A stretch of 6,531 nt of DNA, from assembly GCA_003520315.1 (NCBI GenBank), contig DOVA01000244.1, positions 1 to 6,531 of the forward strand, read 5' to 3'. Numbering within the stretch: position 1 is the first letter of the stretch; every line of letters starts with the position of its first letter. Shown in pieces: positions 153-6,531 of the stretch. Source of the DNA: Rikenellaceae bacterium. GTDB lineage: Bacteria > Bacteroidota > Bacteroidia > Bacteroidales > UBA932. The translations under genes and the position numbers were made by a program. The notes under the pieces are model-generated. The model saw nothing but the letters and a program-made list of their open reading frames with translations. It was not told where the DNA came from and searched no databases.

Positions 153-848
153 TTAAAACAATCGTTTTTTTTGCACTCCTGCCACAAAATCTTTCAGATA
201 GTAAGGTTCAAAGTATGCAACATCTTCAAATTTTCCCTCATAGAATTTTTTGAGTGCAGGTAAGATCATTCCAGAAGCATCTGTCTTACTTTCAATAAAT
301 ACTGCATTTGGATGAGTTATTATACTTTTACATTTTAATGCTCCATCTCCGGTAAATACTACAATCCCGCTTTGAAGCTCATTCAGAAAACTTCCCTCAT
401 TAATAATCATAGCTTCAGTTTGCGAAACAGCTTCACACTTCATGTTAAATATTGAAGTATAAACCTCCATTCTTCTCGCATCAATCATCGGTACTATTAA
501 AGTATTTTCAGGATAATCAACAATCTTTGCAGCCACAAGGCGAACAATAGGTTCAAGAGAGTTTATAGCTATCAAAGGTATATCTGTTCCATAACAAATT
601 CCCTTAGCTATGGAGGCGCCAACTCTTAATCCTGTATAAGAACCCGGACCCTCACTTACAGCGATGGCATCACAGTCGGTTGTTGAAAGAGAATACTCTT
701 CAAGAATATCCTTAATCAAGGGAGCAATTATCCTTGCATGAGATTTTGGTTCATTGCTAGAGTGGGAACACAATAGAAATTCTCCTCTTGTCAGAGCAAC
801 CGAGCAGATATCAGTACTTGTCTCAATAAGCAAAAGCAAAGGACTCAT
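153..848 (-). CDS. tsaB: TsaB, partner subunit for tRNA t6A37 threonylcarbamoyl transfer
   Basis: TsaB (YeaZ) is the non-catalytic ASKHA-fold partner of TsaD. With TsaE it forms the cytoplasmic complex that moves threonylcarbamoyl from TC-AMP to A37 of ANN-decoding tRNAs. The 231-residue length is usual for the family. The N-terminus runs straight into the family's first strand with an IETST motif (residues 8-12), which fixes the start. The hallmark SEGPGSYTGLRVG stretch lies at about 65-77. No metal-binding HxExH motif of TsaD is present, as expected. It is the last gene of the minus-strand array, starting 3 bases after the stop of the adaptor gene, so it is probably co-transcribed with it. 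Nothing ties t6A modification to peptide export, and the linkage is probably positional. No damage is seen. Confidence 0.95.
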   Translation of the reverse strand: MSPLLLLIETSTDICSVALTRGEFLLCSHSSNEPKSHARIIAPLIKDILEEYSLSTTDCDAIAVSEGPGSYTGLRVGASIAKGICYGTDIPLIAINSLEPIVRLVAAKIVDYPENTLIVPMIDARRMEVYTSIFNMKCEAVSQTEAMIINEGSFLNELQSGIVVFTGDGALKCKSIITHPNAVFIESKTDASGMILPALKKFYEGKFEDVAYFEPYYLKDFVAGVQKKRLF

Positions 849-851
849 AAT

Positions 852-2123
852 TTAGCTGACGGATTTACTTTTTTCTGATCCTTGTTTCTTCTTATTTGGG
901 TCTTCTATAGTCACTTTTATGCCGCTTTTAAAGGTCTTGCTAATTCCGGAAAAAGGTCCAGTAACAACCATCTCTCCTTCTTCAAGTCCAGTCACAACTT
1001 CAATATTGTTAAGGTCTTGGATGCCCGTTGTAATTCTTCTCACTTGAAGTGTGTCATTTTTAACAATAAAAACATTTTCGACAGATTCATTGACGCTTAA
1101 GCTTTTCTTAAGAGAATCTGAAAGAAGATCAGTCCTTGTTGTAATAGACTGTAAAGGAATTGTCAGTACATTATGTTTGGTAGCTGTCTCAATTGAAACA
1201 GAAGCAGACATTCCTGGTCTGAAAGGATTTTTCCCGTCAACCATAAGATCTGAATATGATTCAGGTAAAATCAACACTTTAACCTCAAAATTTGTGACTT
1301 GGTCGACTGCTGAGCCAATATTTTTTGCCGAATTTGCTATTTGTGTCACAATACCTGTAAACTTTCTGTTTGGATAAGCATCCACTTCTATCTTGGCAGT
1401 ATCTCTATCCTTTATTCTGATAATATCATTTTCATTGACATCAACCAAAACTTCCATTTCATTGAAATTAGCTATTCTGAGCATTTCTGTGCCGGCCATT
1501 TGGCTTGTGCCTACAACTCTTTCACCTTTTTCTACGCTAAGTTTTGAAATAATGCCGTCCATAGGAGCATAAATACTGGTCTTGTAAAGATTTTCATTTG
1601 CCTCTTTAAGTGCTGCGTCATAGCTGTTAACATTAAACCGGGCTCCTTTTATTTGTTCCTTGGCTATTTCGTACTGGTAAAGAGCATCTTCATATTCTTT
1701 TTCTGAAATGGCTTTCTGTTCATATAGCTTTTTGTTTCTTATATAATTTGCCTCAATCTGACCGAATTGGGCAAGTTGCTGATCGAGCTGGGCTTTGGCA
1801 GCATTTAATGAAGCTTCTGCCCTCTCTTTCATGGAAATGTAAACGTCCTGTTTAATTTTAATAATAAGGTCTCCCCTTTTAACTTTATCTCCTTCTTTAA
1901 CATTTAACTCAATGATTTCACCTGAAACGTCAGGGCTTATCTTTACCTCTGTTACCGGTTGAATCTTTCCGTTTGCGGGAATAACTTCAGTTATAGTGTT
2001 AAGCTTAACCTTCTCGGCTGTAACTGTAACACTTTCCTTTTTACCGGCCATTCCGACAACGATCAGAATCAGAATGATTAAAGCAGCAATTATAAGAATC
2101 CGGTTTTGTTTGTTTTTTTTCAT
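852..2123 (-). CDS. MacA/HlyD-type periplasmic adaptor (membrane fusion protein)
   Basis: This 423-residue protein should sit in the periplasm anchored by one N-terminal helix (about 9-26, a run of Ile/Leu/Val after a Lys-rich start) and bridge an inner-membrane pump to a TolC channel. Domains in order: the first half of the lipoyl-like domain (about 45-92, with GKIQP and a GDKVKRGD turn), an alpha-helical hairpin rich in Ala, Gln and Glu (about 95-182), the second half-lipoyl (about 184-218, with APMDG), a beta-barrel (about 220-315), and a membrane-proximal domain ending in an EEGEMVVTG strand (about 381-389). The tail is Lys/Ser-rich. This layout resembles MacA or RND-type adaptors more than CvaA. 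It starts 14 bases after the TolC gene and no MacB-like ABC permease follows, so in this locus its inner-membrane partner is most simply the C39 transporter (inference). The start lacks a Shine-Dalgarno, as is common in Bacteroidetes. Confidence 0.9.
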   Translation of the reverse strand: MKKNKQNRILIIAALIILILIVVGMAGKKESVTVTAEKVKLNTITEVIPANGKIQPVTEVKISPDVSGEIIELNVKEGDKVKRGDLIIKIKQDVYISMKERAEASLNAAKAQLDQQLAQFGQIEANYIRNKKLYEQKAISEKEYEDALYQYEIAKEQIKGARFNVNSYDAALKEANENLYKTSIYAPMDGIISKLSVEKGERVVGTSQMAGTEMLRIANFNEMEVLVDVNENDIIRIKDRDTAKIEVDAYPNRKFTGIVTQIANSAKNIGSAVDQVTNFEVKVLILPESYSDLMVDGKNPFRPGMSASVSIETATKHNVLTIPLQSITTRTDLLSDSLKKSLSVNESVENVFIVKNDTLQVRRITTGIQDLNNIEVVTGLEEGEMVVTGPFSGISKTFKSGIKVTIEDPNKKKQGSEKSKSVS

Positions 2124-2137
2124 TAGAATAGAATGTT

Positions 2138-3457
2138 TTAAAGAGTAATAGGAATGCCTTTGTAATAATCGAGAACTTTAAGCTGGAAAACAAACTGATA
2201 TTTTGCCTGTAAAAGATCTGACATAGCCTTGAAAAGATTAGTCTTGGCAACTGTGTAGTCAGTTGCATTCAGCACACCTATCTCAAACTTTTGCTGGACA
2301 TATCTGAAAGATTCTTCCATAGATTTGACATTTTCAATGGAGGCTTTGTATTTTTCAAAATAAGCAATTGCATCATTATTGGCTTGTTGAATCTCCTTAA
2401 AGAGAGTTTGTTCCGCAGTTTTAAGATCAATTTCTGCGCTCTTGACATTCAGATGAGCATTTCGTATGACAGTATTTGTCTGCCAGTTGTTGAAAATAGG
2501 AATTCTAAGTCCGAAAGAGATAGAAGGATTGCGATTTTCATTGAACTGATCCATCATGGTCTCCTCTCTCTGATCACTGTAGTAAGTACCATAGCCGGCT
2601 GAGAAAGAAACAGAAGGATAACTTGCACCCTTGGCTACCGATAGTTGCAGTTTTGAATTTTTCTGATTTAAAAGAGCACTTTGTATTTCAGGTAAATCTC
2701 TGGATAATTCATACAAAGAATCAACAGATTCCCCATCGAACTCCGAAATCATCACACCCAAATCCGGAGTCAGAATATCAAAATGTGTGTCGTATGACAA
2801 GTCGAGAAGTTGTCTGAGGGTGAGTAAAGCAGAATTAACCTGATTTTTTGCTGAGACAACCTGTACTCTTTCAGTCGCCAATTGAGACTGTATCTCGAGA
2901 AGAGAGCTATATGCAACACTTCCGGCATCAACCAGTTTCTCAGTACGTTTAACCTGTTCTTCTACGCTAGCAAGACTTTGATCAGCTGATTTAAGAATTT
3001 CCTTTGCAAGCATTACCTCAAGATAATTTTTGGAGATTTGCAATGCAAGCTGATTCTTGGTTCTTTTAACCTCCAACTCTGAAATTTGCAACAGAACCTC
3101 CTTGCTTTTTAGATTATTGGTTTTCTGTAAACCTTCAAACAGAGTTAACGATGCATTAAGAGAAGCACTCATACTTTGGGATAGTTTATTCTCAACAATC
3201 TGCAAATCTTGCATATTTACAGAACGTCCCCAGTTCATGCTGTGAGAAACAGAGGCATTCATAGATGGAAGATAGTCCATTTTTGACTGGAAAACATTAT
3301 TATTGCTCTGGTTGACAGATATCTCTTTTTGTTTAACCATAAGATTATTGTCCCATGCATATTTTATGCACTCTACCAAACTCCAACTCTTTTGTGCCGG
3401 GAGTTGAATCGGGACGTAAAGAAGAAATAAAACCGGGAGTATGTTAGTGATTTTCAT
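2138..3457 (-). CDS. TolC-family outer-membrane channel protein
   Basis: Outer-membrane efflux protein of 439 residues. A signal peptide is visible (about 1-21: Lys2, a hydrophobic core, then LPA before Gln22). The mature protein opens with the typical WSLVECIKYAWDNN stretch (25-38) and has two similar halves rich in coiled-coil-forming Gln, Lys, Glu and Ser, the pattern of a TolC trimer whose helices form the periplasmic tunnel. The first half has a LPSMNASVS strand and the second a matching YPSVSFSAGYG strand, as expected for the internal repeat. The C-terminal part has the familiar GVLNATDYTVAKTNL stretch. It follows peptide B by 65 bases and precedes the adaptor by 14, so it should serve as the exit duct of the same system, although TolC proteins often serve several pumps. 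A possible promoter lies just upstream. Confidence 0.93.
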   Translation of the reverse strand: MKITNILPVLFLLYVPIQLPAQKSWSLVECIKYAWDNNLMVKQKEISVNQSNNNVFQSKMDYLPSMNASVSHSMNWGRSVNMQDLQIVENKLSQSMSASLNASLTLFEGLQKTNNLKSKEVLLQISELEVKRTKNQLALQISKNYLEVMLAKEILKSADQSLASVEEQVKRTEKLVDAGSVAYSSLLEIQSQLATERVQVVSAKNQVNSALLTLRQLLDLSYDTHFDILTPDLGVMISEFDGESVDSLYELSRDLPEIQSALLNQKNSKLQLSVAKGASYPSVSFSAGYGTYYSDQREETMMDQFNENRNPSISFGLRIPIFNNWQTNTVIRNAHLNVKSAEIDLKTAEQTLFKEIQQANNDAIAYFEKYKASIENVKSMEESFRYVQQKFEIGVLNATDYTVAKTNLFKAMSDLLQAKYQFVFQLKVLDYYKGIPITL

Positions 3458-3461
3458 ATGA

Positions 3462-3488
3462 CAAATATATTACTTTTTACTTAACAAA
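3462..3488 (-). promoter_or_regulatory. candidate Bacteroidetes-type promoter upstream of the TolC gene
   Basis: On the minus strand TATATTTG (complement of 3462-3469) is an exact match to the -7 box TAnnTTTG. A TTTG (complement of 3485-3488) lies 15 bases upstream, closer than the usual spacing of about 19-21 to the -33 TTG, so only one half of the promoter is convincing. The box ends 4 bases before the ATG, so transcription from it would start at or near the start codon and give a leaderless or nearly leaderless mRNA. If real, it would let the TolC, adaptor and tsaB genes be expressed without the peptide and transporter genes. Confidence 0.35.
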
Positions 3489-3522
3489 CACCCGGTCAAT
3501 GATTTTTAAATTATTTTTTTTG

Positions 3523-3744
3523 TCACTGGTACAATAATACAGGATTAGATCTCATTGAGTAAATATTGTTACTTATTACTTTAAAAAGCTTCCAAAGCTT
3601 TTTCGCCCCGTATCCTACACCCATACCGACATACTCGGCCATGTCGTATTTCCATCCTTCACCTGCACCTCCAATGATGCCGAGGCTCTCCTGATAAGAG
3701 ATCATAACAAGTTCGCCTCTGTCAAACAACGTATTGGTTTTCAT
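3523..3744 (-). CDS. peptide B: double-glycine leader precursor, bacteriocin- or microcin-like
   Basis: A 73-residue precursor. The leader (1-26) carries GEL at 10-12, Ile15, Glu19, Leu21, Ile23 and ends in Gly25-Gly26, which is how a C39 peptidase substrate looks. The predicted core (27-73, 47 residues, net charge about +3, no Cys) starts AGEGWKY, has four glycines at alternating positions (40, 42, 44, 46) that give two overlapping GxxxG motifs, then a cationic aromatic helix KKLWKLFK (48-55) and an 18-residue polar/aliphatic tail. The start is the ATG at 3744-3742, which shares its A with the stop of peptide A and has a GGGAGG ribosome site 7 bases ahead. An ATG 5 codons earlier overlaps that site and would add a non-leader-like MGGCV. 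The C39 transporter upstream and the TolC and adaptor genes downstream supply the export path. Function (toxin, signal or other) is inference; I do not recognise the core. Confidence 0.78.
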   Translation of the reverse strand: MKTNTLFDRGELVMISYQESLGIIGGAGEGWKYDMAEYVGMGVGYGAKKLWKLFKVISNNIYSMRSNPVLLYQ

Positions 3745-3932
3745 CACGCAGCCTCCCATCCGGCAACAAATCCTCGGCGGAAACGCGGCCAGTATTTCTC
3801 CAACTCCTCTGCCAAAGCAGCAGCCTTTTCAAGCAGATTTAACAATTCTCTGAATGTAAGTCCGCCCTGAACCTGCATTCCTTCACTGTCCAGAGCTTCA
3901 ACTTCCCATTCTCTTTCAACTAACTCTTTCAT
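3744..3932 (-). CDS. peptide A: second double-glycine precursor with helical core
   Basis: A 62-residue precursor, the first peptide gene after the transporter. The acidic leader (1-24) has Glu17, Met19 and Val21 before Gly23-Gly24. The core (25-62, 38 residues, net charge about 0, no Cys) looks strongly helical: an amphipathic Leu/Ala/Glu stretch (25-46), then YWPRFRR, then GFVAGWEAA, which contains a GxxxG motif at 54-58. Together with peptide B this fits the class IIb plan of two unlike peptides that pack through GxxxG motifs, but the core matches no family I can name. The start has no Shine-Dalgarno. Its stop overlaps the start of peptide B, which suggests coupled, similar-level synthesis. 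Its GC content (close to half by hand count) is above that of the transport genes. It could instead be a signal peptide or an accessory or immunity-like small protein, but the Gly-Gly leader argues for export. Confidence 0.7.
   Translation of the reverse strand: MKELVEREWEVEALDSEGMQVQGGLTFRELLNLLEKAAALAEELEKYWPRFRRGFVAGWEAA
3752..3757 (-). promoter_or_regulatory. ribosome-binding site that fixes the start of peptide B
   Basis: The minus strand reads GGGAGG here, inside the last codons of peptide A, followed by 7 bases and the ATG at 3744-3742. Strong Shine-Dalgarno sites are unusual in Bacteroidetes. With the TGATG overlap it selects the shorter 73-residue reading of peptide B. Confidence 0.6.
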
Positions 3933-3952
3933 AACAGATTATTTTTATATTT

Positions 3953-3996
3953 CTCGCAAAACGGTGTGCGAGTTTCACCAGGAGTGTGCACCCTCC
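3953..3996. repeat. GC-rich dyads between the transporter and peptide genes
   Basis: Two inverted repeats lie in the 69-base spacer. CTCGCA (3953-3958) pairs perfectly with TGCGAG (3967-3972) across an 8-base loop. The 16 bases at 3981-3996 form a palindrome with one mismatched pair (GGAGTGTG against CACCCTCC). An alternative pairing GGTG (3963-3966) with CACC (3976-3979) would exclude the first hairpin. On the minus-strand transcript neither is followed by a U-run, so they are not ordinary terminators. They could be an mRNA processing or stability element ahead of the peptide genes, or an operator. Confidence 0.45.
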
Positions 3997-4001
3997 ATTT
4001 T

Positions 4002-6062
4002 TTATTTAATGTTTACATGTCTGTCAGCAATAGCAAGGTCTTCTTTCTGATGTGAGATAAGCAGGATAATGCAACCTCTTTCTCTTTGTCTGACTACTGA
4101 ATTTAATATTAAATTTTTAGATTCAGTATCGCACGAGGAAGTTGCCTCATCCAAAATCAATATTTTGGGTTCTCTGTAAAGAGCTCTTGCTACGGCTATT
4201 CTCTGCTGTTCACCTCTCGAGAGCCTTGAGCCATTCTCTCCAAGGAACGTATCAAGACCAAGTGGCAGTCTTTTAAGGAGGTCAAGAAGACCAAGTTCCC
4301 TGCATAATTGGAGAATAAGATCACAATCAGGTTCTGTTTCTCCCGGAGCGATGTTTTGACTGATAGTTCCTGAAAATAGTCCCGGATTTTGAGGAACAAT
4401 TGTTATTATATTTCTCCATAATTGAAGATTTATCTGATTTATATCTACACCGTCGGCAGCAATAGATCCTGATTCAGCATGTAACATTCTCATCAACAGC
4501 AACGCTACAGTACTTTTACCACTTCCGTTTTCCCCACAAAGAGCTGTAATTTGTCCAGATTTAAGACAAAGATTGAAATCTTGTAACACTTTGTCCCTTC
4601 CTGCATAGCCAAACACAATTTTCTCCATTTTAAGCTCCTCGATATTAAGTTCTACAGATAAACCTTCATTATAAGGTTCTCCGTCAAGATCCATAACTTC
4701 AAAAAGTCTTTCGGCAGCCGCCATTCCGTCTCTAATAGATGTGTTGAGAGCGATGAAACTGTTTAAGGGAGACGAGAATAATGCTGTGAGCGTATAAAAT
4801 AAAATTAATTCTCCAAGTGTAAGCTTGTCGGTAAGAATAAACAGCCCGCCCGCCCATAAGGTGGTAATTGAAAGCAACTTTGAGTTAAAGTCAGTTGATC
4901 CCGCAAATGAAATCCCCCATTTACCTGCTTTAACAATTGAACTGTTGAGAGTTATCAGTCTATCACGAATATCGGCAACAATTTCTTTTTCAATCCCAAA
5001 ACATTTTACAGTAAGAGAACTTCTGATGTTTTCAATTAAGGAGCTTTCGAATTTAGCACCATTTTCCATTATTGTTTTTCTTATGCTACGATTTATTATG
5101 TCATATATGATATAAAGCAAAATATAAAGAGGCAGGAACGCCAATAAAAACAAGGAAAGTTTCCATTGAACAGTTAAAAGAACAATAATTGAAAGAAGAA
5201 AAGTCAATATATTAATTGAAAAAGTCAAAACAGCTTCTGACAGCATATTTCCCACCTTAAAAGCGTCTTCAATCCGGGAAGTAATTTCACCAGTTTTTCT
5301 ACTATCGAAATATTGTTGCGGCAGCTCAAACAATTTTGTAACGAATGATGAAATCAGTTCATGGTTTGTGCCAACAGAGAGATTAAGCAAAATTTTGGAT
5401 CTATGCCAGTAAAGAAGGAATGATAAGATAGCAAAACAGATCATTGCTACTCCGATCAAAGTGATTTGATGCTGATTTCCTGATGGTATTACATCGTCAA
5501 TCAAATATTTTATAAAAAACGAAGTACTTAAAGAAATTAATATGAAAAGTATTGAAACTGTCAAAGCTTTAAGGTAATCTCTCTTTTTTGTCTTAAATAT
5601 TTTCCACAATCTCTGAAGAGGGTTGACTCCAACTCTGCCCTTTTTAAAATTATCGTCAGGTAAGGCAACTATTATGTGACCAGTCCATTCCTCGCACAAA
5701 TCTGCTATGTTTACTCTTTGTATTCGCCCTTTTGAAGGATCCATGATATGAGCAAACTTTTTGCCAATCCGGTAAAGGACAGCAAAATGAAGCAGACCAC
5801 TCTTTTTCTTCAAATGGAGAATAGCCGGTTTGGGTATTTTATACAGAGATGACAGCTTTCCTTTATATCCTTTTGCAGTTAAACCGATTTTTTTTGCAGC
5901 ATCTATAAGTCCGGCAATTGTACTTCCCTCTGAATTGGTACCACTATAGTTTCTCAATTTTGCAACGGGGAATCGTAACCCGTAGAAAGCTGCCACAGAA
6001 GCAAGTGAGGCAACGCCACAATCACTTAAATCTTGTTGTCTGATTTTTACTGAAAACTTCAT
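4002..6062 (-). CDS. peptidase-containing ABC transporter (C39 bacteriocin exporter, PCAT)
   Basis: This 686-residue inner-membrane protein should cut Gly-Gly leaders and export the cores with ATP. The N-terminal C39 peptidase (about 1-140) has the oxyanion Gln9 and catalytic Cys15 in QQDLSDCG, His92 in LLHFAVL and Asp108 in MDPS, so the protease looks active. The ABC exporter membrane domain follows (about 160-440), with hydrophobic segments near 165-187, 199-218, 281-299, 303-322, 397-411 and 418-437. The ATPase domain has Walker A GENGSGKST (510-518), Q-loop Gln558, signature LSRGEQQ (614-620; Arg and Glu where LSGGQ is usual), Walker B ILILDEATS (634-642) and H-loop His671. Length is normal for the family. 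The start has a strong AGGAGG 5 bases upstream. The two Gly-Gly precursors directly downstream are its likely substrates, and the TolC and adaptor genes beyond them its likely partners. Gram-negative colicin V exporter CvaB is the nearest well-known type. Confidence 0.95.
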   Translation of the reverse strand: MKFSVKIRQQDLSDCGVASLASVAAFYGLRFPVAKLRNYSGTNSEGSTIAGLIDAAKKIGLTAKGYKGKLSSLYKIPKPAILHLKKKSGLLHFAVLYRIGKKFAHIMDPSKGRIQRVNIADLCEEWTGHIIVALPDDNFKKGRVGVNPLQRLWKIFKTKKRDYLKALTVSILFILISLSTSFFIKYLIDDVIPSGNQHQITLIGVAMICFAILSFLLYWHRSKILLNLSVGTNHELISSFVTKLFELPQQYFDSRKTGEITSRIEDAFKVGNMLSEAVLTFSINILTFLLSIIVLLTVQWKLSLFLLAFLPLYILLYIIYDIINRSIRKTIMENGAKFESSLIENIRSSLTVKCFGIEKEIVADIRDRLITLNSSIVKAGKWGISFAGSTDFNSKLLSITTLWAGGLFILTDKLTLGELILFYTLTALFSSPLNSFIALNTSIRDGMAAAERLFEVMDLDGEPYNEGLSVELNIEELKMEKIVFGYAGRDKVLQDFNLCLKSGQITALCGENGSGKSTVALLLMRMLHAESGSIAADGVDINQINLQLWRNIITIVPQNPGLFSGTISQNIAPGETEPDCDLILQLCRELGLLDLLKRLPLGLDTFLGENGSRLSRGEQQRIAVARALYREPKILILDEATSSCDTESKNLILNSVVRQRERGCIILLISHQKEDLAIADRHVNIK

Positions 6063-6357: not shown

Positions 6358-6531
6358 TTAAATATCCATTAACTCTCTGACACCAGGGATTTGTTCAAAA
6401 TAGGGGTAGATTTTAGGGGCTATCTTTCCAACAAAAGTATAGACCTTAGATTGAGATAAAGTTGATTGAGGGATAAAATTTAAATGAGTGTTTAGTGAGT
6501 TAAAGATATATATTAATACACTAATTATTAC
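6358..6531 (-). CDS. 3' end of a probable CvpA-family membrane protein
   Basis: The minus strand is open from the window edge for 57 codons to a TAA at 6360-6358, which is notable in such AT-rich DNA; the gene starts outside the window. The fragment begins with a hydrophobic segment (VIISVLIYIF), then a polar stretch with NSLN, FIPQSTLSQSKVY, a short helix-like VGKIAPKIYPYFE and the end ELMDI. A last membrane helix followed by a Ser-Lys-x-Tyr turn and an IAP-x-I-x-P segment is how I remember the end of CvpA (colicin V production) proteins. The assignment is from memory of the family pattern and not certain. It is co-directional with the peptide-export operon but 295 bases away, and CvpA proteins are common in genomes without bacteriocins, so a functional link is only possible. 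Confidence 0.55.
   Translation of the reverse strand, partial: VIISVLIYIFNSLNTHLNFIPQSTLSQSKVYTFVGKIAPKIYPYFEQIPGVRELMDI

Follow-up and report, generated by a model that had tools for sequence, protein, structure and literature searches.

The window, that is, the whole stretch of 6,531 nucleotides that was analysed, carries on its minus strand, in this order, the end of cvpA, an exporter gene, two short genes termed A and B, and genes for a TolC-type protein, a HlyD/MacA-type adaptor and TsaB; all coordinates below refer to that strand. The 3' end of cvpA (6358..6531), which forms one flank, was assigned from gene order and from comparison with cvpA of two related loci, L001 and L002. It is followed by a gene for a C39 peptidase ABC exporter of 686 aa (4002..6062) with matches to PF03412, PF00664 and PF00005. 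The C39 domain was recognised at an E value of 9.7e-29 (PF03412), and its Cys, His and Asp motifs were all present, as were the Walker A and signature motifs of the ATPase, under what we take to be the usual definitions of these motifs. On the other side of A and B lie genes for a TolC-type outer-membrane protein of 439 aa (2138..3457; PF02321), a possible channel for the products of A and B, and for a HlyD/MacA-type periplasmic adaptor of 423 aa (852..2123; family-model matches), and then tsaB (153..848; PF00814), a flanking housekeeping gene that served as an anchor. A block 5' of tolC (3461-3500; ACCGGGTGTTTGTTAAG...TAATATATTTGTCA) was near-identical in L002 and resembles a Bacteroidota promoter; the promoter reading was dropped, since the transcript would begin inside the gene.

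Precursor A (3744..3932) has 62 aa, with a leader of 24 aa ending in GG (3861-3932) and a core of 38 aa (3747-3860) that holds a GxxxG motif at core positions 30-34. Precursor B (3523..3744) has 73 aa, a leader of 26 aa, again with a GG end (3667-3744), and a core of 47 aa (3526-3666) with GxxxG from core position 14. The average masses calculated for the two cores are 4466.1 (A) and 5377.2 (B). The original prediction, made from the window alone, had proposed two overlapping double-glycine precursors directly behind a C39 transporter, and it was borne out in the coordinates, in the leaders of 24 and 26 aa, in the overlap of one base and in the position of the pair, which is separated from the exporter by a gap of 69 bases.

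A search with the exporter, using one genome per species, recovered L001 and L002 with the same gene order, in addition to two unrelated ABC matches. L002 lies in Bacteroidales bacterium CF, which we take to be close to the UBA932/RC9 group. A B profile matched 27 of 299 genomes of the family containing L001 and L002, and the locus was present in 26; the 27th (G297) gave a weak match inside a 778-aa frame, without any gene of the locus, and was rejected. The order exporter-A-B-TolC was kept in 26/26 of these close genomes. An A profile of 26 rows matched 70 of the 299 family genomes, 44 of them new, and 40 of the 44 new loci were fetched as the divergent set. All 40 had an exporter homologue 5' of A and, following A, a GG-leader ORF that conformed to a preset rule; the first B profile recognised 22 of the 40 divergent B at E<0.1. 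The divergent exporters were identified as homologues, the C39 motifs having been read one by one in the close loci: the Cys and His motifs were found in 24 of 27, contig ends truncating the remaining three, and a strict pattern for the Asp motif matched in 21 of 27. Co-occurrence of both precursors beside a C39-type transporter, proposed beforehand as a check, was therefore the rule in close genomes (26/26) and divergent loci (40/40) alike.

A larger A profile, built from 49 rows, had matches in 138 of the 299 family genomes, including six with best E values of 1e-5 to 1e-3 that may be chance matches; the surroundings were read for 66 of the 138. Two loci missed by this profile, L137 and L138, had the cassette at the tsaB region. 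Draws at the level of the order gave 2 of 393 genomes with profile A3 and 2 of 295 with profile A5; these were the same two genomes, both of which belong to the same family and were also in the family draw. The A3 draw is weak evidence of absence, since this profile misses many divergent loci.

Wherever the contigs of close loci were long enough, the cassette lay between ileS/cvpA and tsaB/TlpA/HINT/greA. Among the divergent loci, TolC was found 3' of the pair in 35 of 40. In L095, L107 and L112, B was followed by tsaB with no TolC-HlyD between, and for these cassettes an outer-membrane channel would have to be encoded elsewhere in the genome; L096 had neither TolC nor tsaB, and in L093 the contig ended. 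The block from exporter to tsaB was inverted relative to ileS/cvpA in L098 and L118. The cvpA gene, annotated for a 'colicin V production' protein, adjoins this colicin-V-type exporter in the window, in L001 and L002 and in most close loci; the link may be accidental, because cvpA stays with ileS in L098 and L118 while the cassette is inverted.

Distances between loci correlated with those of ileS for core A (r 0.74), core B (0.71) and HlyD (0.68). Judged from gene order and these distances, the cassette is a fixed chromosomal trait that diverges with the chromosome and not a mobile weapon. The expectation of an accessory island was not upheld, the site being fixed in the 26 close and 40 divergent loci. 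Given ileS, the distances of A and B correlated at 0.76; a statement that the two co-evolve would be weak and not specific, since the correlation between TsaB and the ABC exporter was nearly as high at 0.71. Over 52 loci, tsaB distances tracked those of the exporter with a partial r of 0.71 given ileS, much more closely than HlyD or TolC distances did.

The region 5' of tsaB was also read in genomes without a profile match, in 18 stretches from the family and 17 from the rest of the order. Two of the family stretches had the cassette, and in six cvpA adjoined tsaB. Three more (L127, L128 and L131) had TolC-HlyD-tsaB with no such exporter in front, and the remainder had another arrangement or were too short. 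Elsewhere in the order, TolC-HlyD-tsaB was present in 6 of the 17 stretches and no exporter was seen in any, several of the stretches being short. Given ileS, the distances of the exporter were uncorrelated with those of HlyD and TolC (r 0.05 and 0.00), and those of HlyD and TolC were correlated with each other at r 0.91. As TolC-HlyD stands at this site without the cassette in other genomes, it looks like an older neighbour, and the cassette proper would consist of exporter, A and B. TolC-HlyD may serve the exporter; it is not clearly the pair's own channel, as the original prediction had it.

The ATG at 3744 is the likelier start of B, listed from 3759 among the open reading frames, because it overlaps the stop codon of A by one base (TGATG, at 3744) in 26 of 27 close loci, the window included; the exception was L054. 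The same overlap was seen in just 3 of 40 divergent loci, so that as a trait of close loci it stands and as a general property of the pair it does not. Much the same applies to the predicted lack of cysteine. Both cores of the window are without Cys, and in the close set of 27 loci Cys occurred in no A core and in 2 B cores; in the divergent set of 40 it occurred in 13 B cores and 3 A cores.

Relatives in the protein database at E<=0.001 numbered 6 for A and 4 for B, and the identity between the window and L001/L002 was 79-81% for A and 56-57% for B. By the NG86 method, dN/dS was 0.03-0.18 for A over 13 pairs. For B it was 0.05-0.17 over 11 pairs, the other two of the 13, which involve the B of the window, being saturated; dS exceeded 1.5 in some of the pairs used. 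YN00 estimates reached 0.41 for A and 0.28 for B, with no estimate in 5 of 13 pairs for each. On these comparisons both frames are genes under purifying selection. Short ORFs are common in any window, and A and B might on that ground be taken for chance reading frames; conservation, fixed order and dN/dS refute this, and we regard its probability as negligible. Loss of conservation, conservation of just one frame or absence of coding constraint would have told against the original prediction, and none of these was encountered.

The cores are unlike each other and, as predicted, matched no known family. Pfam gave no match to A or B of the window, and NCBIfam gave none to B and just a chance arginase match to A (E 0.059). 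Bacteriocin family models searched with the members returned weak single-member matches only, among them Bacteriocin_IIc (0.05) and lactococcin G-beta (0.019). The ComC model (PF03047) matched one of 49 A members at E 3.1e-5 and BlpC one of 49 at E 4.4e-4; A of the window matched neither. A search of solved structures with the two profiles yielded chance-like matches only (best E 0.0038 and 0.021), and viral contigs searched for A held no relative. The B profile matched 149 proteins in the protein database; among the 120 of these that were listed no Pfam domains were found, and all usable names were 'hypothetical protein'.

Over 49 rows the invariant positions were M1, G23, G24, Y47, G54 and G58 in A and G26 and G44 in B, so that Y47, G54 and G58 in A and G44 in B are the sole invariant residues of the cores. 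G54 and G58 form the GxxxG motif of A, which was present in 67 of 67 A cores. In B, GxxxG was found in 58 of 67 cores (all 27 close ones and 31 of the 40 divergent ones), and the remaining nine had AxxxG in the same place, at core position 13 or 14. When the cores of 64 loci were shuffled, 11.6 occurrences of GxxxG were expected in A against 64 observed, and 16.3 in B against 55 observed. These counts show retention and not independent origin, since the loci are related; two of the 27 close loci, L032 and L056, have identical A and B. Taken alone, the cores of the window are unremarkable in this respect, as GxxxG arises in 4.9% of shuffles of A and 47% of shuffles of B. AlphaFold2 predicted for A a single helix over residues 27-61 with moderate confidence (mean pLDDT 67); for B the mean pLDDT was 50 and the model was not usable.

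A structured RNA element, absent from the original prediction, was observed between the transporter gene and A. The conserved block consists of a hairpin with a palindromic loop, after which come GGYG, a second strand and CRCC; a spacer then leads to a strand complementary to that second one. In the window the hairpin (3981..3996; stem GGAG/CTCC, loop GTGCAC) lies directly 3' of the transporter stop. The part of the block after the hairpin reads as an H-type pseudoknot (3953..3979), ending 20 nt 5' of the A start, in which P1 would pair 3979-3976 with 3966-3963 and P2 would pair 3972-3967 with 3958-3953. Two-sided changes between loci were found in P1 (GGTG/CACC versus GGCG/CGCC) and in P2 (CTCGCA/TGCGAG, GTCCAC/GTGGAC, TCTTTGC/GCAAAGA and others). 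A pseudoknot score of 13 was reached in 44 of 66 loci and in 2 of 330 shuffled sequences, the shuffles keeping base content only and not dinucleotides. No uninterrupted pseudoknot was found in 14 of the 66 loci, several of which have a bulged P2 by eye. By eye, the hairpin-pseudoknot also precedes A in L138.

A permutation test in which both stems were chosen jointly was biased, and it was repeated with P1 chosen independently of P2. The mean P2 stem was then 4.73 against 3.63 for permuted partners (maximum 4.08; 0/5000), and when each distinct loop was represented by a single locus (44 in all) it was 4.84 against 3.53 (0/5000). This result is probably diluted, because the rule chose the wrong stem in several loci, the window included. 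In pair counts from a MAFFT alignment, the covariation score and the number of cells with two-sided change lay beyond 500 of 500 shuffles; the number of pairs with two-sided change (2) was reached in 28 of 500 shuffles, and that of pair types (3) in 497 of 500. As the MAFFT alignment misplaces the 3' strand of P2, a search model, R1, was restricted to the hairpin and P1. In genome scans, which scored no more than 150 first-look candidates from each genome, R1 matched best at the A locus in all 18 carrier genomes (E between 6.5e-16 and 2.6e-6), training loci of the model among them; in 4 genomes without a known cassette E was 0.05 or worse, or nothing was returned. Five close loci excluded from training were all matched at 5.8e-7 or better, and of 25 divergent loci 2 were found at E<0.01. 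A second match in G102 (E 1.8e-4) fell on the antisense strand of a response-regulator gene and appears to be a chance match. Rfam gave no match at the element, which appears to be specific to this locus among the genomes tested.

A shared immunity gene was sought in the 27 close loci among 76 small ORFs from the gaps between known genes, pieces of exporter and TolC being excluded. The largest cluster spanned 6 of the 27 loci and ran antisense to the RNA element, and the other clusters were smaller; as no small ORF was kept beyond 6 of 27 close loci, these loci have no immunity gene in common. One exception emerged when the 102 fetched loci were scanned with a loose motif and with Pfam. In L138 a gene for an Rce1-like membrane protein (PF02517, E 8.5e-15; 3858-4571 of that locus, minus strand) lies between B and TolC, separated from B by a terminator-like hairpin. 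The Rce1-like family PF02517 is presumably the same as Abi, and Abi proteins were reportedly linked by Kjos in 2010 to self-immunity against bacteriocins in Gram-positives. The gene is a possible Abi-type immunity gene, found in 1 of 68 cassettes and to be treated as a lead only. The missing immunity gene is not fatal to a bacteriocin reading, since bacteroidetocin producers, which belong to the same order, inhibit themselves and have no obvious immunity gene according to the available text of the report (PMC6671954).

Of the known systems, the class IIb bacteriocins (plantaricin S and lactococcin G, for example) share most with A and B: two unlike, adjacent GG precursors with a C39-type exporter and a GxxxG or GxxxG-like motif in each peptide. 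The A/B locus differs in its Gram-negative host, its fixed chromosomal site, the lack of a conserved immunity gene and of a family-model match, and the structured RNA before the pair. In its predicted working the pair resembles class IIb, but it was not placed in that class, as the search for an immunity gene was negative and none of the family models matches. The class IIb plan put forward in the original prediction is upheld by the paired unlike cores and by small-xxx-small motifs in both, and it is not upheld as regards a conserved immunity gene; with the observation itself confirmed, its interpretation is partly supported. In Enterobacterales, class II microcins of the colicin V type combine a GG precursor with a C39 ABC exporter, an adaptor and TolC. 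Genes for all of these are present in the window, though TolC-HlyD also stands at the site without the cassette and does not co-vary with the exporter. These microcins are, as far as is known, single peptides, whereas A and B are a pair and have TolC-HlyD as a seemingly older neighbour at the site. The pheromones ComC and BlpC, matched by one A member each, have the GG leader in common with A and B; they are single short peptides accompanied by a sensor kinase. No sensor kinase was present among the ORFs read beside the cassette in L001 and L002, the other loci having been checked for the known flanking genes.

The Nap system of Neisseria resembles the A/B locus in having several small GG peptides and a C39 peptidase in a Gram-negative host, and is unlike it in lying on an acquired island with the export channel NapF and a napI gene and in having no coupled pair. 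Bacteroidetocins, as described in the available text (PMC6671954), share with A and B a GG precursor, a C39 ABC exporter, a Bacteroidales host and the want of an obvious immunity gene; they are single pediocin-like peptides with cysteines, and their loci encode a transmembrane protein and mostly a thiol oxidoreductase. By contrast, the locus studied here encodes a pair of peptides, A and B, whose cores in the window contain no Cys, where bacteroidetocins are defined by at least two Cys in the mature peptide, and no such transmembrane protein or thiol oxidoreductase adjoins them, which agrees with the earlier view that they are not bacteroidetocins. A TlpA-like gene does lie beyond tsaB, as part of the conserved flank.

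It is probable, from the arrangement and conservation of the two genes, that A and B make up a secreted heterodimer resembling those of class IIb. They would be two halves of one secreted effector: the C39 domain would cut both leaders after GG and export the cores, which would probably leave via TolC-HlyD, and in the membrane the helices of A and B would pair through their GxxxG faces as in class IIb. GxxxG or GxxxG-like motifs occur in all class IIb bacteriocins characterised so far, according to the available text of PMC6382864. The coupled stop and start codons may hold A:B near 1:1 in the close group, and the pseudoknot may set the amount of A and B relative to the exporter. The most likely use would be a membrane-directed action on competing or kin bacteria, with self-protection in most carriers coming from something other than a neighbouring gene. 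The two-peptide design can be proposed with some confidence and its target with little; for an antibacterial use the case is nearly balanced, with doubt weighing slightly the more. Against a plain bacteriocin stand the fixed site, the divergence along with the chromosome, which is unusual for a bacteriocin, and the lack of a conserved immunity gene.

These same three features would suit a secreted signal pair: the producer population would read at least one of the cores, and the fixed locus would be a core trait for communication. Single members of the 49 A sequences also match ComC and BlpC, both families of GG-leader pheromones. Such matches, however, are confined to one member each and may rest on the leader. 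In L001 and L002 the flanks, as far as read, contain no kinase or regulator gene, and the conserved flanks of the other loci are housekeeping genes. Cores of 38 and 47 aa are moreover long for pheromones, and the paired GxxxG motifs would be left unexplained; a signal pair is for us an unlikely solution. Peptides directed at the producer itself, acting on its envelope or lysing part of the population, would also account for retention as a chromosomal trait and for the lack of a conserved immunity gene, and the upstream RNA element could gate their synthesis. The Nap peptides of Neisseria, GG peptides that promote autolysis and do not kill competitors as far as the available text states (PMC11798529), would be the model. 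The same text places the Naps on a horizontally acquired island with an immunity-like napI gene, unlike the A/B locus, and self-directed action seems to us decidedly improbable. Finally, the unlikeness of A and B and their differing conservation (79-81% and 56-57% identity to L001/L002) might suggest that one is the effector and the other an accessory, be it a chaperone, a receptor or a peptide for immunity, likewise secreted through the C39 exporter. Yet both carry a GG leader and a small-xxx-small motif, and the immunity proteins of class IIb are, in the available text of PMC6957408, membrane proteins with transmembrane segments, so that we give this division of roles very little credence.

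If the class IIb-like heterodimer does act in the manner proposed, two-peptide action of the class IIb type would not be confined to Gram-positives. Among the literature titles and abstracts listed, with subscription papers and preprints outside the scope, no two-peptide bacteriocin of Bacteroidales was described; IIBacFinder is said, in the available text of a commentary (PMC12648078), to predict class II precursors in Bacteroidota. A wider proposal, which we put forward tentatively and with rather more doubt than belief, is that A and B are a near-core, vertically inherited two-peptide effector of the whole family, a Gram-negative counterpart of the class IIb peptides, mostly without an immunity gene and with its own hairpin-pseudoknot sensing a ligand, the ribosome or the state of the exporter and thereby adjusting how much of the pair is made. 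If the pair does act as proposed, it would be a fixed trait in roughly half the species sampled from a single Bacteroidales family, and one that annotation, when it gives a name, lists as 'hypothetical protein'. In its own right, the RNA element is a candidate for a new class of cis-regulators linked to one gene pair.
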